Shown: positions 7,044-40,284 of the stretch, in pieces
Layout of the letters: every line of letters starts with the position of its first letter
Position numbering within the stretch: position 1 is the first letter of the stretch
From: a virus
Virus record (IMG/VR): IMGVR_UViG_3300046535_000982
Location: 1-43,362 of that record
DNA: 43,362 nucleotides
Strand: one strand, 5' to 3'
Notes under the pieces: generated by a model
What the model was told of the DNA's origin: nothing
Database searches by the model: none
The model's input: the letters and a program-made list of their open reading frames with translations, nothing else
Position numbers and translations under genes: made by a program

Positions 7044-7679
7044 ATGCGCAAATCCAGAAGCGATCGAGGCATTCCGAAGAGCCACGGATACTCTCTGACC
7101 CACCGGAAGCTGTACTGCTTATATTTCTCAATGCGGTCTAGGTGCCGCAACCCAAGAAACCCAGCTTACGCTTCGTATGGGGCAAGAGGTATTACTCTTG
7201 CTGCTGAGTGGGATACACCAGAGGCGTTTTGCGCCTGGGCCGTGACGCATGGCTATGCCGTGGGACTTACCATAGAGCGGATAGACAACGACAAAGGCTA
7301 TTCTCCAGCCAATTGCTGTTGGGCGACGCGCAAAGAGCAGGCCAGAAACAGGCGATCAAGCAGAATTGTGGAAATTGGTGAGACGACCAAGACGATCGCT
7401 GAGTTAGCCGAGGCGTCCGGTATCAAGCAAGGCACTCTGCGGCGAAGGATAGAAGCTGGCGAAGTCGAGCGAGCGCGAATTTTCGCGCAAGGGCGAAATC
7501 ACCCTGCCCACCGTATCATCACTATCAATGGTGTTGGCAGGACGCTTCTTGAATGGGCCTCGCTTGCCGGCGTGCATTATACCACGATTTGCAGGCGCGT
7601 AGCCGAGGGCTGGTCCATGGAGGATGCATATACGCGCAAGAACGATACTGGCTGGAGGCGGCATAAAAAGGGTTATTGA
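7044..7679 (+). CDS. HNH homing endonuclease with C-terminal DNA-binding repeats
   Basis: A 211-residue HNH nuclease. The core reads RCRNPRNPAYASYGARGITL, EWDTPEAFCAWA and ERIDNDKGYSPANCCWATR. The C-terminal 90 residues have two helix-turn-helix-like segments (TIAELAEASGIKQGTLRRRI; LLEWASLAGVHYTTICRRV), typical of the binding half of homing enzymes. A possible -10 hexamer, TATGAT at 7033-7038, lies five bases before the ATG, so the mRNA could be nearly leaderless and independent of the tail operon. The stop overlaps the dioxygenase ATG. Confidence 0.85.
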   Translation: MRKSRSDRGIPKSHGYSLTHRKLYCLYFSMRSRCRNPRNPAYASYGARGITLAAEWDTPEAFCAWAVTHGYAVGLTIERIDNDKGYSPANCCWATRKEQARNRRSSRIVEIGETTKTIAELAEASGIKQGTLRRRIEAGEVERARIFAQGRNHPAHRIITINGVGRTLLEWASLAGVHYTTICRRVAEGWSMEDAYTRKNDTGWRRHKKGY

Positions 7680-14278: not shown

Positions 14279-15169
14279 TCAGCCCGCCGCGAGGTTATGC
14301 TCCCCAGCGATCGCGACCTCGTCCAGGTCGTCTCCAGGATCGGCTGGGAAGCGTTCAAAGGCCTCGGCTAGGATAGCGTCGATATCGCGCTTGAACCGAT
14401 CTGGCGCATCCCTGATGGCGTCTCTCACTGAGTCCTTGCCGCCGATCTCCACCACCTCCTGGCGGTGCTTCAGCACGGCGCACGCTGCCCGCAGTTTGGC
14501 GACCCACACCTCCCATTGCTCGTCGGTGCGCTGCGGCTTCTCGGCTGGCGGGGTGTCCCAGACTTCCGGATCCGCCTTGCGGGGCGCGCGCGGTGTGGCA
14601 GCCGCGGCGGAGCGCAGGGGTATGCTATCGTTCAGCGCGTCCCTCGCGGTGCGGATCGGGGCAACGGGAACGTCGTCCTCGGCGTCGAACACCCGAGCGC
14701 CTGGCATCGTGTCCAGCTCGCTCTCATCGGTCTGTCCGAGCCCGCAGATGCTGAGCGTCACGCGCCGTTTCGCTTTCGTGATTGCTTTCATCAGCGCATT
14801 GGCGCGGCTATCGCCCGAAGCAGGCAGGACGACTGCGCCGATATCCTCGTCCTCACGCCCATCCTTGGTTCTTGCCCGCACCGTGACCGATAACACCCCG
14901 GCATCTATCGACTTATCGACAACGTGCAACGTGATGTTGCGCGATGAGCGAAGCTGGTCGGTGCCGTCGCGTGTGAAGTAAATCTGGATCTGACCATTCA
15001 GCGACAGGAACCTGATAGGCCGCGTCAATGGATTGAGGCCGAGCGATTTGCAGGTTGCGACCAGATATTCGACGCGCTGCTGCGTGGTCAGCTTCGACAG
15101 GTCGCCGGTGCCGAGCACATGCTCTAGCGCCTGCGCGGATACCGGCTCGGTGGTGGTGACTGCGTTCAT
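14279..15169 (-). CDS. probable RecT/Bet-like single-strand annealing protein
   Basis: A 296-residue protein. Residues about 33-75 (YLVATCKSLGLNPLTRPIRF, then LNGQIQIYFTRDGTDQLRSS) follow the pattern of the RecT/Redbeta superfamily. Residues 120-145 (SRANALMKAITKAKRRVTLS) resemble the conserved segment of the same phage family. It would anneal single-stranded DNA during recombination. The acidic C-terminus fits SSB or nuclease contact. Start at 15169 overlaps the HNH stop (ATGA). No exonuclease partner lies next to it. RecT-like assignment is by pattern only. Confidence 0.55.
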   Translation of the reverse strand: MNAVTTTEPVSAQALEHVLGTGDLSKLTTQQRVEYLVATCKSLGLNPLTRPIRFLSLNGQIQIYFTRDGTDQLRSSRNITLHVVDKSIDAGVLSVTVRARTKDGREDEDIGAVVLPASGDSRANALMKAITKAKRRVTLSICGLGQTDESELDTMPGARVFDAEDDVPVAPIRTARDALNDSIPLRSAAAATPRAPRKADPEVWDTPPAEKPQRTDEQWEVWVAKLRAACAVLKHRQEVVEIGGKDSVRDAIRDAPDRFKRDIDAILAEAFERFPADPGDDLDEVAIAGEHNLAAG

Positions 15170-15927
15170 GGTTGTGTGGTCCTCTCTTTGCGCCTTTGGC
15201 GATACTCGGCATCTCTCTGGCGCTGGCATGTTGGGCAGATCTGGCCGCCGCGCTTGTTGTGCTTTCCGTCGTACTCATGCCCCTTGCGACAGCGGGCCAG
15301 TGGCGCTTTGGAATGGAAGCGACGTGCTCTTGTCGGGTTTGCCACATCGGTCCAGCCGGAAGAGCGGCTGCGTGACCTAATGGTGTGGATGCGACTGAGC
15401 GACACGCCGTATCTTTCTGCAAGCAGGGCGGCCAGCTCATCACTGGTTCTGATCTCAGATACCTGCGTCGCTGTGAGTTTGGCGCGCGGGCTTTGCTCCC
15501 CTCTTAGTGGGGTGCATACGGCGCGGCCTTTCGCGTGCTTGTCGTGCTGGTTCTGTCGGTGTGTTCCGCGCCAAAGATGGGATGGATTGCAGCAAGGAGG
15601 ATTGTCGCAACCGTGACACACCAGAAGCTTATTGTTCCAGTCACCATCAGTCAGGGACATTGCGATGCGGTGTGTCAGCCTTAGCCTCCCCATCCATGCC
15701 ATTTGACCGTATCCGGCAGGGCCGCGATAACCAGTCCATTCCCAGCATTCATCCGGTTCACCGACAGCAACGCGCGACCAGAATTGCTCTGCCGTCTGGT
15801 TCATCCTCTCCCGCGCTTGAAATTGCGCCCTACATCGGCGAGTGCAGAACGTGGTCTCAGATCGCGCTCCAGAGGGCGGCCGAGCGGCGATCTTGCCGCA
15901 GTTGAAGCAAACGATCTCGACTGGCAT
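15166..15927 (-). CDS. HNH endonuclease (HNH_3 type) with zinc ribbons
   Basis: A 253-residue protein. An N-terminal zinc ribbon (CFNCGK, FCTRRC) is followed by the nuclease core: WSRVAVGEPDECWEWTG, GYGQMAWMGRLRLTHRIAM, LLVCHGCDNPPCCNPSHLW and GTHRQNQHDKHAKGR. Next comes a helix-turn-helix-like part (LTATQVSEIRTSDELAALLA), and a C-terminal zinc ribbon (CRKGHEYD, CPTCQRQRD). It lies between Gp157 and the annealing-protein candidate, coupled to both (TAAATG upstream, ATGA downstream), which suggests insertion into an older operon. Confidence 0.85.
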   Translation of the reverse strand: MPVEIVCFNCGKIAARPPSGARSETTFCTRRCRAQFQARERMNQTAEQFWSRVAVGEPDECWEWTGYRGPAGYGQMAWMGRLRLTHRIAMSLTDGDWNNKLLVCHGCDNPPCCNPSHLWRGTHRQNQHDKHAKGRAVCTPLRGEQSPRAKLTATQVSEIRTSDELAALLAERYGVSLSRIHTIRSRSRSSGWTDVANPTRARRFHSKAPLARCRKGHEYDGKHNKRGGQICPTCQRQRDAEYRQRRKERTTQP

Positions 15928-24721: not shown

Positions 24722-26108
24722 AGCGCTCGCACGCGTCGATCTAAAGCCCGCGCGCCACCACGAACTACTCATCGACCGTTTAGAAGCCATCGAGCGCGGC
24801 GACATCACACGCCTCATGGTTCTAATGCCACCAGGCAGCGCTAAATCTACATACGTATCTACGCTGTTCCCGCCGTGGTATCTCGCTCGTCACCCAGACC
24901 ACGCCATAGTTGCGGCATCGCATACTTCAGAACTCTCAGAGCGCTTCGGCCGCCGTGTCCGCAACATCATCAACGAGCATGCAGCCACGCTGAACATCGC
25001 GCTTGCACCCGACATCCAGGCCGCCAACCAATGGGAGACAACGCAAGGCGGTGAATACTTCGCAGTCGGTGTGCTCGGTGCGGTCACCGGTCGCCGTGCG
25101 GATTGCGTCATCATCGATGATCCAGTGAAATCGCGATTAGAAGCCGACAGCGAAACCATCCGTGAACGCGTCTGGGAATGGTGGAAGGCAGACTTGCTCA
25201 CTCGTCTCAAGCCCGGTGCCAAGATAGTGCTCGTCATGACACGCTGGCATGAGGACGATCTCGGCGGCCGATTGCTCGCTGAAATGGGCGACGGTGGCCG
25301 CAACTGGGAACTGCTCAAACTTCCAATGGAAGCCGAGTTGCACGATCCGATGGGGCGCGCACCAGGCGAGCCGTTGTGGCCTGAGTGGTTCACCACCGAG
25401 ATGCGTACCGACGCCAAGCGCGACAGCCGCACATGGTCCGCGCTCTATCAGCAGTCGCCCGCACCAGCCACCGGCATCTATTTCGAGCGCGACTGGCTTC
25501 GCCCAGCTCACTCAATGCCACGCCGCGAAGACCTGCAGGTGTATGGCGGCAGCGACTACGCGGTGACAGCCGATGGTGGCGACTGGACCGTCCATGTCGT
25601 CGTCGGCATGGACCCAGACAACCGGCTGTGGCTGCTCGACCTCTGGCGCGGCCAGACTGCATCCGATGCGTGGATCGAGGCGCTGTGCGACATGGTGATC
25701 CAATGGAAGCCAGTCGGCTGGGCTGAAGAACAGGGCCAGATCAAGGCGGGCGTCGGGCCGTTCCTCGATCGCCGCCAGCGTGAGCGTCGTGCATTCGTTG
25801 CGCGTCGTCAGTTCCCCACCCGCGGCGACAAGGCAGTGCGCGCACAGTCCATTCGCGGGCGTATTGCGCTCGATGGGCTGCACTATCTCGCATCCGCGCC
25901 ATGGCGTGCAGCATTCGAGGCTGAGCTGATGACGTTCCCGGCGGGCAAGCACGACGACCAGGTTGATGCGCTGGGGCTGGTGGGACAATTGCTCGATGTG
26001 ATGGTCGCTGGCCGTCCGCCGCCACCGCCAGAGCAGGCAGCGGACAGTTGGGACCGCGCCTTCGCCCGCGCAGCGCAGAGCACAGTTGAGTCGTGGCGCG
26101 TAGCATGA
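24591..26108 (+). CDS. terminase large subunit
   Basis: A 505-residue packaging motor. Walker A is MPPGSAKST (about 79-87), Walker B CVIIDDP (about 172-178), then MTRWHEDD as the coupling region. The C-terminal nuclease shows YGGSDYAVTADGGDWTVHVV and FPAGKHDDQVDALG, with aspartates for metal. Start at ATG 24591 (MTYDITSLLP) keeps the usual N-terminal helices; an upstream ATG at 24534 is less likely. Coupled to the next gene (ATGA). Whether it cuts by headful, as in P22, is not visible. Confidence 0.9.
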   Translation: MTYDITSLLPPPQTPISSLSRSQAAALLLHRRTIRASLKTWCIEALARVDLKPARHHELLIDRLEAIERGDITRLMVLMPPGSAKSTYVSTLFPPWYLARHPDHAIVAASHTSELSERFGRRVRNIINEHAATLNIALAPDIQAANQWETTQGGEYFAVGVLGAVTGRRADCVIIDDPVKSRLEADSETIRERVWEWWKADLLTRLKPGAKIVLVMTRWHEDDLGGRLLAEMGDGGRNWELLKLPMEAELHDPMGRAPGEPLWPEWFTTEMRTDAKRDSRTWSALYQQSPAPATGIYFERDWLRPAHSMPRREDLQVYGGSDYAVTADGGDWTVHVVVGMDPDNRLWLLDLWRGQTASDAWIEALCDMVIQWKPVGWAEEQGQIKAGVGPFLDRRQRERRAFVARRQFPTRGDKAVRAQSIRGRIALDGLHYLASAPWRAAFEAELMTFPAGKHDDQVDALGLVGQLLDVMVAGRPPPPPEQAADSWDRAFARAAQSTVESWRVA

Positions 26109-27557: not shown

Positions 27558-27655
27558 CCCACGATCGACGCGGATCGAGACGAGTGCACCAGCGAAACCA
27601 ACGGATTAGCTCTGAAACAGAGACGCCGACCAGGGGATGCCTAGCCGGCGTTCCG
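27558..27655 (+). other. noncoding gap between HNH gene and mini-array B
   Basis: No gene or further repeat copy is seen. A third CRISPR repeat would fall near 27595-27623 at the array's period, and nothing there resembles one. Confidence 0.4.
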
Positions 27656-27744
27656 TAGATCATCCCCGCACGGCGGGGAACACCCTAGGGGGCTGTTGGG
27701 CTGCCACAGCCACGGCGGGTCATCCCCGCGAGTGCAGGGAACGA
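27656..27744 (-). CRISPR. mini-CRISPR array B: two type I-E-like repeats, one 32-nt spacer
   Basis: Read on the minus strand. Repeat 1 (27744-27716, 29 nt) runs TCGTTCCCTGC, ACTC, GCGGGGATGACCCG. The spacer is 27715-27684, exactly 32 nt. Repeat 2 (27683-27656, 28 nt) runs GTGTTCCCCGC, CGT, GCGGGGATGA and then decays (TCTA for CCCG), as end repeats often do. The Escherichia coli type I-E repeat is GAGTTCCCCGC, GCCA, GCGGGGATAAACCG, so stem, length and handle agree. Repeat-to-repeat period is 61. No cas gene is nearby. I found no spacer match in this window. Confidence 0.8.
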
Positions 27745-27767
27745 GGCGGTGCATACACGCGACACCC

Positions 27768-27911
27768 ATGGCTGACAACACTCTCATGGCGCTCGACCGG
27801 CTGGAGTGGTGGGACGTGGCGCGCCGTATCAACCCGTGCATCACCTGGGCCGAGTTCCTGCGCCAGTGGGACGAGTTCCTGCGCCTCAAGGCCGCACACA
27901 AGGCGAACTGA
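27768..27911 (+). CDS. 47-residue protein, unknown
   Basis: MADNTLMALDRLEWWDVARR, INPCITWAEFLRQWDEFLRL, KAAHKAN: helical, tryptophan-rich and acidic. Starts 23 bases beyond mini-array B with only a weak ribosome site. An in-frame upstream extension would run through the array and is not used. No family recognised. Confidence 0.45.
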   Translation: MADNTLMALDRLEWWDVARRINPCITWAEFLRQWDEFLRLKAAHKAN

Positions 27912-27916
27912 CGGCA

Positions 27917-28171
27917 CTAGCGCCGTGGCTCGAACGCCTGCAACAACTTGTGCGCCAGGTCAGCCGCAATGTGCCGCGCCAGGCTCTCGGCTCGCTCGCG
28001 GCGCATGTTCCAGTCGCTCATCGCTGCCAGATCGAAGGCCGGTGGTGCGCGGCCGATGTGGAGATCAAGCGCCTGCTCACGGCCTATCTGGTAGCGCAGC
28101 ATCATCGGTTCGCCGCTTGAGGCGAACGGCGACTGATCGATCCTGATCGATATGGTTACAGCGTCTTCCAT
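27917..28171 (-). CDS. 84-residue protein, unknown
   Basis: MEDAVTISIRIDQSPFASSG, PMMLRYQIGREQALDLHIGR, DWNMRRERAESLARHIAADL. ATG follows a strong AGGAGGG site. Beta-strands come first, then a helix. It pairs with the zinc-ribbon gene upstream (28184), both on the strand opposite to terminase and portal. Function unknown. Confidence 0.6.
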   Translation of the reverse strand: MEDAVTISIRIDQSPFASSGEPMMLRYQIGREQALDLHIGRAPPAFDLAAMSDWNMRRERAESLARHIAADLAHKLLQAFEPRR

Positions 28172-28183
28172 GCTCTCACCCTC

Positions 28184-28378
28184 CTATTCGGCCAGCGGAT
28201 CGCCCAGACACGTCTCGCAGTAGATCAGCAAGTTCTCACCGTTCTCGCTCCAGAGCATCAGTGGCACTTCATCCTCTGGCACCAGCGACCGGCACCGCGA
28301 GCACGTTCCGTCATTCGTCCCGCGATGCCAATGATCGTTCGGTAGGACGCCCCCTGGCACGATCTGAGCAATTTCCAT
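28184..28378 (-). CDS. 64-residue zinc-ribbon protein
   Basis: Start MEIAQIVPGGVLPNDHWHRG is chosen because GAGGAGG lies five bases before it; ATG 28399 would put that site inside the gene. CSRC and CETC, 28 residues apart, form a four-cysteine zinc ribbon (TCSRCRSLVPEDEVPLMLWS, LIYCETCLGD). It is antisense and just upstream of the portal gene. Function unknown. Confidence 0.6.
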   Translation of the reverse strand: MEIAQIVPGGVLPNDHWHRGTNDGTCSRCRSLVPEDEVPLMLWSENGENLLIYCETCLGDPLAE

Positions 28379-28397: not shown

Positions 28398-30614
28398 ATG
28401 AGCGATACCGCAATCCATCTTCATGTCCATACCGGCGACCGCGGCCCCGACACGCCGCCGGCGATCCGTGACCTGACGGGCGGCGACCCGGACGCCTACC
28501 CGAAGGACCTCGACGACCTCCACGCCCGCCTGATCCGCTGGTTCGAGGAGAGCGAGCTGGCGCGCATGGACGAGATCGACCTCGCACAGCGCGACCGCGA
28601 CTACGTCGACCACAACCAATACACCAGGGACGAGCTGAAGGTTCTGCGGGACCGAGGCCAGCCGATCATTACGATCAACAAGATCAAGGACAAGCTGGAG
28701 TTGCTCTGCGGCATGGAGCGCAAGGCGCGCACCGACCCCAAGGCATTCGCACGCACGCCAGCCGAGGAAGACCGCGCCGATGCGGCGACGCAGTGCTTGC
28801 GCTACATCGCAGACGACAATTCGTTCTCGCTGCTTCGTAGCCTGGTATTCGAGAACATGCTGACGGAAGGCGCCGGTGGCGTTGACCTGGGCCTCGAGGA
28901 CGACGGCCAGGGTAGCTGCAACGTGACCATGACGCACATACCGTGGGATCGCGTCTGGTACGATCCGCACAGCCGATCGCTGGACTTCGGTGATGCGCGG
29001 TACAAGGGCCTCGTCATCTGGACCGATCGTGACACGTTGGAGGAGCTGTACCCAGGCGAGGATGTGCAGGACGTAATCGAGAGCAGCTTCAGCAGCGCCG
29101 ACTATCAATACAACGATCGACCCGAAACGGCGTTCTGGACCGACAACAACCGCACGCGCATCCGCCTCGTCCAGTGCGACTGGTCCGAGCGTGGCACATG
29201 GTGGAGGGCGACCTACACCAAGAGCGGGCTGCTGGCCGCGCCGCAGCGCTCCAAGTTCAAGGACCGCAAGGGCAAGTCGTGCAGTGGGCTGCTGCTGCAA
29301 AGCAGCTACATCAATCGCGAGAACCAGCGCTACGGCATGGTGCGCGGGCTGATCTCGCTCCAGGACGAGATCAACAAGCGCCGCTCCAAGGCGATGCACC
29401 TGCTCAACGTGCATCAGGTCGTGGCCGAGCAGGGCGCGGTGCCGGATGTCGACAAGGCGAGGCGCGAGGTGGCCAAGCCGGATGGATATGTGGAAGTCAT
29501 GCCTGGGTTGAAATTTGAGATCCAGCAAACAACCGACTTGGCGGCCGGCCAGTTCCAACTGCTGCAGCACGCCACCGCCGAGATGCAGCTCAGCGGCCCC
29601 AACGCAGCCATGAGCGGCACCGATCCGCGCGAGCTGAGCGGCAGGGCCGTGCTGGCGATGCAGGCGGGGGGTGCAGCCCAGAACGAGCCATTGGCCGACG
29701 CGCTCAGGTTCTGGTCACGCCGCGTCTATGAGACCGCGTGGCAAGCAGCTCGGGAGTTCTGGTCTGGCGGAAAATGGGTCAGAGTGACGGACGACCTGAA
29801 CGAAACGCGCTGGGTCGGGATCAATCGGCCGGTGCGGCTGATGGACAAGCTGGCTGACATGGATCCGCAGCACCGCGCCATGATCATGCAGCAGATGCAG
29901 CTACAGCCAGGAGACCCAAGACTACAGCAAGTGGTTGGTATAGAGAATGATATAACCGATTTGGACGTTGATATTACTATTGAAGAGGGGATTGATATCC
30001 CATCGCTACAGGCCGAGGAGTTCCAATCGCTGGTGCAGCTCGCGAGCGTTCAGCCGGGATTGATCCCTGGTGACGTTCTGATCGCTGCCTCGGGGCTGCG
30101 AGATAAAGATATGATATTGGAACGGATGAAGGCCCATCAACAACAGCAACAGCAGGCCCAGCAGCAAGCAGGACAGATCGCAGCGCAGCACGGGCAGGCA
30201 CAGATTGCGGATCTACAGTCCAAGGCCGCAGCCAACATGGCGCTGGCGAAAGAGCGCACCGTCAACGCGGCATCCACGATCCACGATGCGCACCGCACAT
30301 TCCAGGGCTTGCCGGACGACAACGCAACGCAGGTGAACCCGGCGCAGCCGCCGCCTGACCCCGAGCAAATGACACCGGATTTAGCGATGGCGCATCATGT
30401 CGCTGACTTGCAGCAGAAGCATCTGGATCTTCAGAAAACCGGCGCCGACATCAGCAAGACGCGGGCCGATACGCTGCTGACGGCTGCCAAGATACCGCAA
30501 GCCGCGCAGCAGACGCTGCACACCGCGCACCAGACGCATCAGACAGCCATCACGACGAACAGGCTGATGCGCACGCCCATTCCACAGCCACAACCGCCGG
30601 GGAGCGCGCCATGA
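28398..30614 (+). CDS. P22-like portal protein
   Basis: A 738-residue protein (P22 gp1 has 725). Residues 40-110 give IRWFEESELARMDEIDLAQR, DYVDHNQYTRDELKVLRDRG and QPIITINKIKDKLELLCGME, then IPWDRVWYDPHSRSLDFGDA and GRAVLAMQAGGAAQ, matching the P22 portal family. The last 140 residues are Gln-rich and helical (HQQQQQQAQQQAGQIAAQHG), like the portal barrel that reaches into the head. Twelve copies would form the DNA gate and bind gp4. Bases 29930-30000 are clearly AT-richer than the rest. Confidence 0.9.
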   Translation: MSDTAIHLHVHTGDRGPDTPPAIRDLTGGDPDAYPKDLDDLHARLIRWFEESELARMDEIDLAQRDRDYVDHNQYTRDELKVLRDRGQPIITINKIKDKLELLCGMERKARTDPKAFARTPAEEDRADAATQCLRYIADDNSFSLLRSLVFENMLTEGAGGVDLGLEDDGQGSCNVTMTHIPWDRVWYDPHSRSLDFGDARYKGLVIWTDRDTLEELYPGEDVQDVIESSFSSADYQYNDRPETAFWTDNNRTRIRLVQCDWSERGTWWRATYTKSGLLAAPQRSKFKDRKGKSCSGLLLQSSYINRENQRYGMVRGLISLQDEINKRRSKAMHLLNVHQVVAEQGAVPDVDKARREVAKPDGYVEVMPGLKFEIQQTTDLAAGQFQLLQHATAEMQLSGPNAAMSGTDPRELSGRAVLAMQAGGAAQNEPLADALRFWSRRVYETAWQAAREFWSGGKWVRVTDDLNETRWVGINRPVRLMDKLADMDPQHRAMIMQQMQLQPGDPRLQQVVGIENDITDLDVDITIEEGIDIPSLQAEEFQSLVQLASVQPGLIPGDVLIAASGLRDKDMILERMKAHQQQQQQAQQQAGQIAAQHGQAQIADLQSKAAANMALAKERTVNAASTIHDAHRTFQGLPDDNATQVNPAQPPPDPEQMTPDLAMAHHVADLQQKHLDLQKTGADISKTRADTLLTAAKIPQAAQQTLHTAHQTHQTAITTNRLMRTPIPQPQPPGSAP

Positions 30615-37540: not shown

Positions 37541-38650
37541 ATGGCTGACATGAATGTAACCCCGGCAAGACCGGGTCTGACCCCAATAATCTGGCAATCA
37601 GACTTTTGGGTTGAGTATCTCAGGGAAAACCAGTTCACACCTTATTTCGGCACCACAATGGACGCGATGATCCAACTACAGACGGATCTGACGCGCAAAC
37701 GTGGCGACACCGTCGTGTTCCCCACCGTCCGCAATCTGGTCGGAGCCGGCGTAACGGGCAACACGGTGCTCGAGGGCAATGAGGAGATACTGAACGCCCG
37801 CAGCCTGAACGTCGTTGTCGGCGTCATCCGGCACGCCGTGGCTGTGTCGGAATGGGACGAGCAGAAGAGCATCATCGATCTGCTCCAGGCCGGTCGCCAG
37901 GTGCTGAAGAACTGGGCGGCGAACAAGTTGCGGGCCGACATCATCACCAGCCTTGGCGCCATCACAGCTGATGGCAATGTGCAGCTCACCTACGCGGTGG
38001 CAACGGCGGCACAGCGCAACACCTGGCTGGTGAACAACTCGGATCGCGTGCTGTTCGGTGCCAGCAAATCCAACAACACGGGCGTCTACGCCACCTCACT
38101 GACCAACGTCGACAATACCGCCGACAAACTCACCGCCGCCCAGGTCACGCTGGCCAAGCGCATCGCGCGCACCGCCACGCCCAAGATCCGTCCCATCCGG
38201 GTCAACCGTGACGAGGAGTGGTACGTGATGTTCGTGCCCAGCATGGCGTTCCGCGATCTGATGCTCGATCCGGTGATTATCAACGCCCTGCAATATGCCT
38301 GGAACCGCGGCTCCGACAATCCGTTGTTCACCGCTGGTGACATCCTCTACGACGGCGTGATTATCAGGGAAATCCCTGAACTGCCGGTGCTGGCCGGCGC
38401 TGGCTCGGGGGGCACCACCGATGTCGCTGCATCGTATCTTTGCGGCGCGCAGGCGATCGGCATCGCCTGGGCTCAGCGCACCAAAGTGATCGAAAACCGA
38501 CGCGACTACGGGTTCTTCAACGGCGTTGGTGTTGAGGAAATCCGCGGCGTGCAGAAGCTGCGTTTCGGCGTTGATCCCACTGTTGACACAACAAAACCAG
38601 TGGACAACGGGATAGTTACGGTTTGGAGTGCGGCTGTAGCTGACGCATAA
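37541..38650 (+). CDS. major capsid protein, N4-gp56-like
   Basis: A 369-residue protein. The segment FTPYFGTTMDAMIQLQTDLT, RKRGDTVVFPTVRNLVGAGV, TGNTVLEGNEEILNARSLNV, then RHAVAVSEWDEQKSIIDLLQ matches the N4-gp56/DUF4043 capsid family, with an HK97-type fold expected. EEWYVMFVPSMAFRDLMLDP lies later in the same fold. The ATG lacks a strong ribosome site, surprising for the most abundant protein; the repeat-rich leader may help. It is followed by the Ig-domain gene. Confidence 0.85.
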   Translation: MADMNVTPARPGLTPIIWQSDFWVEYLRENQFTPYFGTTMDAMIQLQTDLTRKRGDTVVFPTVRNLVGAGVTGNTVLEGNEEILNARSLNVVVGVIRHAVAVSEWDEQKSIIDLLQAGRQVLKNWAANKLRADIITSLGAITADGNVQLTYAVATAAQRNTWLVNNSDRVLFGASKSNNTGVYATSLTNVDNTADKLTAAQVTLAKRIARTATPKIRPIRVNRDEEWYVMFVPSMAFRDLMLDPVIINALQYAWNRGSDNPLFTAGDILYDGVIIREIPELPVLAGAGSGGTTDVAASYLCGAQAIGIAWAQRTKVIENRRDYGFFNGVGVEEIRGVQKLRFGVDPTVDTTKPVDNGIVTVWSAAVADA

Positions 38651-38699: not shown

Positions 38700-39485
38700 A
38701 TGCCGAGTGACAAGAACCAGCACGGCGAGATGCACGGCGCGCATCCCAGCCAGCAGTCGCAACTCCCACCGCCAGGGCCTGGCGAGCAGCGGGCAGGGTA
38801 TCCGGCAGGACCGCCGGAGCCAGGTCAGCCGGGTTGGCGCCCACCGTCGGAGGCGCGCGCCGCACCGGCCGTCGATCAGAAGATGGAGGCCGAGCGCAAG
38901 GAGGCGCAGGCGGTTTCCAGCATCGGCGCGCAGATCATCCTCGACTACAACTCCGAGGCCGGTCTGGGAGCCCGTGGCGGTGCCGCCGGTACCATCGAGG
39001 AGAACCAGATGGTCCGCGACGAGGGCCTGGCCGCGGTGGGTCTTGATCCGCAGAACCCGAGCGGGCCGCCGCCGATGGCACCGCTGGAGCCGCCGCCGGA
39101 GGCTGCCAGAAGCAACGCGCCGCCGATCTCCAGCAAGGCCACCAGGATGACCTCGCTGGCCGCCGGCATCATCACCGACGCGCCAGGGACGCCTCCAGGC
39201 GGCGGCAATGGGGGCGGCGGTGGTGCCACGGCGCCTGCCAACACCACGGTGCCGCAGGTCACGCAGAGCGGCCAGACGCTGAACTGCACCCAAGGCGAAT
39301 GGTCGGGCGAGCCCACCAGCTACAGCTACGCCTGGCAGGTCAACAGCGTGGGCGTCGGCACTGACGCAGCGACCTACGACGTGCAGCCGGCTGACGTGGG
39401 GCAGAGCGCTACCTGCACCGTGACTGCGACCAACGCAGCAGGCTCAGCGGCCGCGCCTCCGTCAGTCGGCGTCGTGGTGACCTGA
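38700..39485 (+). CDS. capsid-associated protein with C-terminal Ig-like domain
   Basis: A 261-residue protein; ATG 38700 follows AGGAG. The N-terminus is Pro/Gln-rich (HPSQQSQLPPPGPGEQRAGY), then a helical segment (VDQKMEAERKEAQAVSSIGA). After a Gly-rich linker residues about 180-261 form an Ig-like fold: TTVPQVTQSGQTLNCTQGEW, SYAWQVNSVGVGTDAATYDV, DVGQSATCTVTATNAAGSAA. Ig domains often decorate capsids. Bases 39405-39436 encode SATCTVTATNA, the same peptide as the spacer of mini-array A. Confidence 0.75.
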   Translation: MPSDKNQHGEMHGAHPSQQSQLPPPGPGEQRAGYPAGPPEPGQPGWRPPSEARAAPAVDQKMEAERKEAQAVSSIGAQIILDYNSEAGLGARGGAAGTIEENQMVRDEGLAAVGLDPQNPSGPPPMAPLEPPPEAARSNAPPISSKATRMTSLAAGIITDAPGTPPGGGNGGGGGATAPANTTVPQVTQSGQTLNCTQGEWSGEPTSYSYAWQVNSVGVGTDAATYDVQPADVGQSATCTVTATNAAGSAAAPPSVGVVVT

Positions 39486-39551
39486 GATGACGACGTCCAT
39501 CGGCGCCGTGTTTTTATGTGACTGTCGGGGGATGGACGATGTATAGCAGTG
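39486..39551 (+). promoter_or_regulatory. leader-like region before mini-array A
   Basis: Between the Ig-domain gene stop and the first repeat. It contains an 8-bp inverted repeat (CGTCCATC 39494-39501, GATGGACG 39531-39538), a T5 run, and a weak promoter-like pair (TGTGAC about 39517, TATAGC 39542-39547) that would start RNA at the first repeat. No leader consensus can be confirmed by eye. Confidence 0.35.
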
Positions 39552-39640
39552 ACGTTCCCCGCTATGCGGGGATGACCCGTCCGCTACCTGCACGGTCACA
39601 GCCACCAACGCCTGTTCCCTGCGTCAGCGGGGATAAACCG
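39552..39640 (+). CRISPR. mini-CRISPR array A: two type I-E-like repeats, one 32-nt spacer
   Basis: Repeat 1 (39552-39579, 28 nt) is ACGTTCCCCGC, TAT, GCGGGGATGACCCG. The spacer is 39580-39611, exactly 32 nt. Repeat 2 (39612-39640, 29 nt) is CTGTTCCCTGC, GTCA, GCGGGGATAAACCG, whose last eight bases equal the Escherichia coli crRNA handle ATAAACCG. The palindromic stem, 28/29-nt length and 32-nt spacer fit type I-E. The spacer aligns with 39405-39436 of the preceding gene at 26 of 32 bases, and similarity stops at the spacer edges. No cas genes are present, so host Cas proteins would be needed. The final base of repeat 2 is the first base of the next gene's GTG. Confidence 0.85.
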
Positions 39641-40284
39641 TGACCGTCTCTATCGGAACCATCGCCCAGGTAGCCTTGCGCCGCCTGGGCGTTCGGATCG
39701 TACCTCTGGACGACTCTCCGACATTAACGGAGATGGTTTCATTTGACACCATCGCCGTTGGGGCGTTGATAGAACTCGGGGTAATTGCCTCGGATGAGAC
39801 ACCGATCAACGCCGACATGGACTTCATGCGCGACAAGGTCAGCTCGGTACATGCCGCGCTCGATGCTCAGGGCGTGGTGTGGTGGCCGGTCGGCTCCGTG
39901 CCGCGCGCGTTCACCGAGGAATACACGAAGTTAAGCGCCGCTATGGGCGGCAGCAGCTTCGGCAAATCCATCGACCCAGCGATCGTGGCGATGCTCGAGG
40001 CGCGCATCCGCAAGGGTGCCATGGTGCTGAGCGCGGACACCAACGCGCAGCAGGCAGTGCAGGCAGTCCACGACGACCTCGTCATGCGCGGCATCGCTCG
40101 GTGGACTTCGCTCGATATTCCCGATCCGCTGTCCGACCCATACGCCACGCTGGCGGCCGATGCGCTGGCACCGCTGTTCGGTGGCGACACCGATCCGAAC
40201 GACACGCGGGACGCGATGGTGGCGATCTACCGCTACATCGCACTGCCCAGCAGCGGCGAGACGGTGTCGACCGCGTATTTCTAA
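39640..40284 (+). CDS. P22 gp4-like tail accessory protein
   Basis: A 214-residue protein starting at GTG 39640: MTVSIGTIAQVALRRLGVRI, TEMVSFDTIAVGALIELGVI, VVWWPVGSVPRAFTEEYTKL. It resembles gp4-family head-tail connectors that bind the portal (P22 gp4 has 166 residues); in P22, gp4 also cuts peptidoglycan, and no such site can be named here. The only upstream GGGGAT available as ribosome site lies inside CRISPR repeat 2, with an in-frame TAA just before the start, so array and gene are physically linked. Confidence 0.7.
   Translation: MTVSIGTIAQVALRRLGVRIVPLDDSPTLTEMVSFDTIAVGALIELGVIASDETPINADMDFMRDKVSSVHAALDAQGVVWWPVGSVPRAFTEEYTKLSAAMGGSSFGKSIDPAIVAMLEARIRKGAMVLSADTNAQQAVQAVHDDLVMRGIARWTSLDIPDPLSDPYATLAADALAPLFGGDTDPNDTRDAMVAIYRYIALPSSGETVSTAYF

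Follow-up and report, generated by a model that had tools for sequence, protein, structure and literature searches.

Across a clade of uncultured phages, CRISPR mini-arrays, mostly with a single spacer, were found normally to adjoin the carrier's own homolog of the gene targeted by the spacer, and this own homolog is predicted to be resistant. This general pattern had been missed by an earlier note on the same DNA. We give a probability of about 0.75 to the reading that the arrays borrow the type I-E system of the host against co-infecting relatives while being linked to a resistant allele. The reading builds on the observed anatomy of the arrays, the spacer matches with their PAMs, the linkage between array and target homolog, the empty sites in relatives and two near-identical tracts centred on arrays.

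The window, i.e., the whole stretch of DNA that was analysed (43,362 nucleotides), is a 43-kb virus record from a clade of uncultured phages that have genes for portal, terminase and major head protein. Relatives were collected with the following gene.

37541-38650, plus strand: major head protein gene (PHROG 334)

A search with the head protein gave 191 relatives in IMG/VR. Among annotated phages, any relatives were distant ones. Neither Cse1 nor Cas1, the cas families checked, was present in the window record, which may be incomplete. HNH endonuclease genes were assigned by PHROGs at 7044-7679 (plus strand) and 15166-15927 (minus strand) of the window. The region of the first array, array A, contains the following features.

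38700-39485, plus strand: Ig-like-domain gene, the target gene of spacer A (from its translation; 45 relatives in IMG/VR)
39405-39436, plus strand: own copy of target A, predicted to be resistant (CAG upstream; 6 silent mismatches, two of them at spacer positions 1-2)
39487-39507, plus strand: remnant of the start of the downstream gene, before array A (from alignment with the empty sites in L004, L010 and L011)
39551-39579, plus strand: array A repeat 1 (29 nt, type I-E-like hairpin)
39580-39611, plus strand: spacer A (32 nt; S0), matching the own gene at 26/32 and relatives with AAG upstream at 28/32
39612-39640, plus strand: array A repeat 2, the terminal repeat (hairpin)
39640-40284, plus strand: downstream gene, with a GTG restart at the last base of array A repeat 2

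Spacer A, at 39580-39611, reads TCCGCTACCTGCACGGTCACAGCCACCAACGC and is flanked by the 29-nt repeats 39551-39579 and 39612-39640, the first of which ends with the 8 nt ATGACCCG, the predicted 5' handle of the crRNA. Bases 39405-39436 of the Ig-domain gene, 115 bp upstream, read AGCGCTACCTGCACCGTGACTGCGACCAACGC, with CAG directly before them. The two stretches are identical at 26/32 positions, and the 6 mismatches, at spacer positions 1, 2, 15, 18, 21 and 24, change five codons, all of them synonymously (S, T, V, T, A). The earlier note had stated that both stretches encode the same peptide with silent differences and that the similarity stops at the spacer borders; both statements were confirmed, the flanks beyond the 32 nt being unrelated. 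When spacer A was shuffled 300 times by base and 300 times by codon, the best match in the window had at least 9 and at least 7 mismatches, respectively, compared with 6 for the real spacer. RNA folding yielded stem-loops for the repeats of both arrays, and the repeat pattern had no match in 100 shuffled windows. A consensus scan detected no promoter at array A.

The earlier note had further derived spacer A from a homologous gene in a related phage. This origin agrees with the existence of relatives closer to the spacer than the window's own gene: the closest matches, in L025/L165 and L171, have 4 mismatches (28/32) and AAG upstream. The exact match with an AAG-like PAM for which the note had proposed a search was not obtained, as exact and degenerate searches of IMG/VR and of the phage collection gave no exact protospacer of spacer A. 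The nearest AAG-bearing relatives also carry the mismatches at spacer positions 1-2. Rctr41k was considered as a donor and rejected; it matches over 23 nt with one mismatch, within an unnamed gene, but has 8 mismatches across the full spacer. A match running past the spacer in array-less relatives was looked for and not seen, and these relatives have an empty site. The expectation that the window's own copy would escape its own crRNA also held at the level of sequence, with 6 mismatches and CAG in the own copy and 4 mismatches and AAG in the relatives.

The second one-spacer array of the window, array B, occupies 27655-27744 on the minus strand.

27558-28184, no strand assigned: 627-bp tract around array B, 99.4% identical to G001
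27655-27683, minus strand: array B repeat 2, the terminal repeat (hairpin fold)
27684-27715, minus strand: spacer B (32 nt; S4), matching L076 at 31/32 with ATG upstream
27716-27744, minus strand: array B repeat 1 (29-nt repeat, hairpin fold)
28398-30614, plus strand: portal gene (PHROG 156); relatives keep the spacer B target gene just upstream of it

The window lacks the gene that spacer B targets, and array B occupies the syntenic site of this gene, next to the portal gene on its upstream side. Among the relatives, the gene was seen at L103:19200-17400 (minus strand). Outside the 627-bp tract, most of the segments that could be aligned between the window and G001 were about 70-93% identical. 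One part of the tract (27919-28184) reaches about 96% identity in array-less relatives as well.

For the comparison across the clade, 80 related loci were read and IMG/VR was scanned for the repeat, the collections being fragmentary. This yielded 23 distinct spacers (S0-S22, including the two of the window) in about a dozen carriers, mostly in one-spacer arrays, and a later scan added one further array, in L220. The targets that were found are homologous genes in other phages of the clade. Exact targets were obtained for S2 (in L037 and L050), S9 (in G034) and S21 (in G033/G038), and the 13 best targets had 0-6 mismatches, all in homologous genes of relatives. AAG or ATG stood directly upstream in 12 of these 13, for which the chance is 1e-17 at an expected frequency of 1/32 and 2e-10 at a lenient 1/8. 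The sole exception was S15, whose targets at L023:1222 and L037:4602 have 1 mismatch and ATC upstream. No target was found for S22, and the arrays of other phage groups (L221, L223, L224 and L226) had no matches in the loci compared. Between G034 and G033/G038, exact spacer matches run in both directions.

Arrays of two and three spacers with near-perfect repeats were seen at the same site in L127:17986-18139 and L137:17737-17950 (G034 and G038/G033). One 41-kb phage, G029 (L121-L123), contains at least four mini-arrays and a lone repeat near position 25866; in its double array, spacers S16 and S17 are alike and seem to be related to the beginning of the gene next to it. Some solitary repeats were also present in relatives. 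In the single-spacer arrays, the 8 nt directly preceding the spacer have CCG as their last three bases in 16/16 cases, compared with 3/16 for the equivalent part of the terminal repeat, which is the pattern expected if there is selection for one processed crRNA.

For 14 of the 16 distinct single-spacer arrays, the distance to the carrier's own target homolog was 0-1117 bp, with a median of 88 bp. Compared with uniform placement, the 14 distances gave a Fisher's combined P of about 1e-14, a statistic that assumes uniform placement and independent arrays. Eleven of the arrays were fixed starting from the target, i.e., from the relative's gene to its homolog in the carrier by tblastn, and under the same assumptions these cases alone gave P 8e-11. 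The placements of S5, S18 and S19 are weaker, as they are supported chiefly by similarity of DNA and peptides close by, and short contigs weaken the single cases L094, L097 and L091. For S4 and S9, the top match of the homolog search was the array itself; S4 was therefore settled by synteny, and array B is thereby the fifteenth array to obey the proximity rule. L220, found after the rule was set, has an own match with 7 mismatches 213 bp from its spacer. Among the multi-spacer arrays, the own homolog of S21 lies 308 bp away and that of S20, in a two-spacer array, about 15 kb away. In L094, L127 and L130, different spacers are directed against the same gene start from one array site, which suggests spacer turnover at a fixed site. 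The arrays concerned, at L094:5912-6001, L127:10395-10484 and L130:8050-8139, occupy about the same intergenic position.

Array-less relatives have short junctions at the array sites, and the arrays of the carriers are clean insertions there. The gap at the site of array A was -3 in the relative and 155 in the carrier; the corresponding values were 48 and 152 for S1, 2 and 92 for S7, 20 and 108 for S8, 11 and 125 for S12, and 13 and 109 for S13. Near-identical tracts centred on an array were observed between divergent phages in two cases, of about 230 bp and 627 bp. The shorter one belongs to the S2 array, which is common to L076 and L094: the spacer and repeats are identical at 89/90 positions and lie within about 230 near-identical bases that include the recoded target, while the remaining aligned stretch is 83% identical. 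When the carriers of S14 were compared, no clear array-centred tract was seen.

The own copies of the targets differ from the spacers by 3-13 bases. In 13/14 of them, the seed is mismatched or the upstream trinucleotide is non-canonical; S19 is the lone case in which the own copy has kept both the seed and a canonical upstream trinucleotide (AGG). From the PAM, the seed or the number of mismatches, the carrier's own site is predicted to be resistant. The mismatches of the own copies were not enriched in the seed (0.26 versus 0.27 per site), and escape therefore seems to reflect general divergence or allele replacement rather than seed mutations. The own allele of the S2 target in L076 differs from that of L037 by a 67-nt patch with 24 base changes and one amino-acid change. 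The patch has a GC content of 42% versus 66%, and the adjoining 29 bases contain a single change.

In the search for a host, the exact 29-nt repeat gave no match, and a shorter repeat matched three genomes. One of them, Sabulicella rubraurantiaca, carries similar variable I-E-type repeats together with Cse1. Its chromosomal I-E-type array, at L203:1-1750, contains repeat copies that vary in loop and stem and resemble the phage repeats. The spacers of S. rubraurantiaca had no match to the phages of the clade, no further copy of the repeat was found in 299 genomes of the Sabulicella family (S. rubraurantiaca included), and the head protein had only distant matches, of at most 43% identity, in 385 genomes of the Sabulicella class. 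An apparent one-spacer array with the repeat of the phage arrays was seen at L204:6676-6750, on a 10-kb contig of an alphaproteobacterial MAG, which may be a phage contig.

Arrays A and B may be viewed as type I-E CRISPR units of one spacer each, carried by a phage that brings no cas genes of its own, one such unit being about 90 bp long and having no reading frame for a nuclease. The array transcript would be cut by the Cas6 of the host into one crRNA. Guided by it, host Cascade and Cas3 would attack a co-infecting relative at its sensitive version of the neighbouring gene. The window itself would escape spacer A because its own copy has diverged synonymously and lost the PAM, and spacer B because the target gene is absent. 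As the array lies beside its own target locus or replaces it, array and resistant allele would be inherited together as a poison-antidote pair.

Two explanations of the linkage share this scheme and differ in what cutting would lead to. The arrays may home under RNA guidance, the host cutting the array-less allele and repair copying the array with its resistant flank, which would make a guide-only gene drive of about 90 bp; we regard this tentatively, at somewhat below even odds. The proximity rule, the clean insertions at the junctions, the near-identical tracts centred on arrays between divergent phages and the recoded 67-nt patch that moves together with the S2 array all point in this direction. 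However, the shared-array cases number only two and mosaic phages swap such tracts anyway, a portion of the tract around array B is also conserved, at about 96% identity, in array-less relatives, and the S14 carriers have no clear tract. Furthermore, Cas3 is a processive degrader, and such degradation favours loss over repair. Spread by cut-and-repair is accordingly plausible, the tracts fitting it while ordinary phage recombination could also make them. The other possibility, to which we would likewise give a little less than an even chance, is that the arrays kill or restrict relatives and that cutting drives no copying; proximity would then persist because recombinants that separate the array from the resistant allele destroy themselves. 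The linkage data serve this explanation identically, and it agrees with own targets that are diverged or absent and with the use of a common array site, in L094, L127 and L130, for differing spacers directed at a single gene start. By itself it does not explain why insertion occurred at the target locus, and not anywhere within a few kb, nor does it explain the near-identical tracts, although neither point is decisive.

The remaining explanations are far less probable than the reading as linked exclusion of relatives. Autoregulation of the CreA type, in which a guide partly matching the adjacent own gene represses it through Cascade, would account for the position of the guides, often at the start codon of such a gene, and for S19 with its retained seed and AGG, but it is very unlikely, since the seed is broken or the upstream trinucleotide is non-canonical in all the other own copies and relatives match better. 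We consider it similarly improbable that the repeats are decoys of the RNA anti-CRISPR (Racr) kind, which disable host Cas proteins and make the spacer incidental: phage repeats without cas genes and the solitary repeats of some relatives would fit, yet the spacers have their full 32-33 nt, match protospacers with PAMs, and in the case of L076 and L094 are conserved. The probability that spacer A arose by chance similarity or as a degraded duplicate of the Ig domain is practically negligible. The Ig-like motif is common in phages of the clade; nevertheless, the match covers exactly 32 nt between two I-E-like repeats, shuffled spacers never reached 6 mismatches, relatives have an empty site, and over a dozen unrelated spacers show the same behaviour.

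The arrangement that we favour, in which an array is linked to a resistant allele, is similar in effect to the localized exclusion of markers that free-standing homing endonucleases bring about. Such enzymes, as in intronless homing of the T4 SegF type, are encoded beside their target locus, have a diverged own site and exclude the alleles of relatives. The mini-arrays share the position beside the target locus, the predicted resistance of the own site and the empty allele in relatives. Homing endonucleases encode a nuclease, whereas the mini-arrays would provide a guide RNA for host nucleases, and copying by repair is here only proposed. In CreTA guards, the CRISPR-like guide CreA lies beside a partly matching gene, which is also the arrangement of the mini-arrays; CreTA keeps the match of seed and PAM in its neighbour, whereas the mini-arrays have lost it in 13/14 cases.

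With Racr (PMC10651486), the arrays have in common that a phage encodes CRISPR repeats with which the Cas proteins of the host would interact. Racr consists of solitary repeats that block Cas, whereas the arrays described here possess a complete spacer, matched by protospacers with PAMs, and a second hairpin repeat. Closest in kind are the mini-arrays of archaeal viruses, for which Medvedeva et al. (2019; PMC6858448) reported targets near the arrays and described origins and consequences as unclear. They also have one or two spacers and no cas genes, their spacers are directed against close relatives, the own loci are mutated or deleted, and the targets lie near the arrays. The archaeal arrays have host-like leaders, whereas those described here belong to bacterial tailed phages and have type I-E-like repeats and no evident leader. 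According to PMC6858448 and PMC7099407, Faure et al. (2019) described leaderless phage mini-arrays, some of which target adjacent genes in relatives and not in the carrier; as cited there, the pattern concerns some spacers only, and the citing texts mention no homing model. No homing proposal for mini-arrays was found in the literature searched, subscription papers such as Faure et al. (2019) lying outside its scope. Mini-arrays were thus already known, with nearby targets noted once, as unexplained (PMC6858448). Beyond that report, the present comparison adds proximity across a phage clade with strong statistics over many arrays. It further adds the empty sites, the recoding of own alleles and the array-centred tracts that divergent phages share. 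The question of why arrays adjoin their targets thereby comes down to a choice that can be tested, between a poison-antidote pair held together by linkage and RNA-guided homing; if the latter were true, a natural guide-only gene drive would exist.
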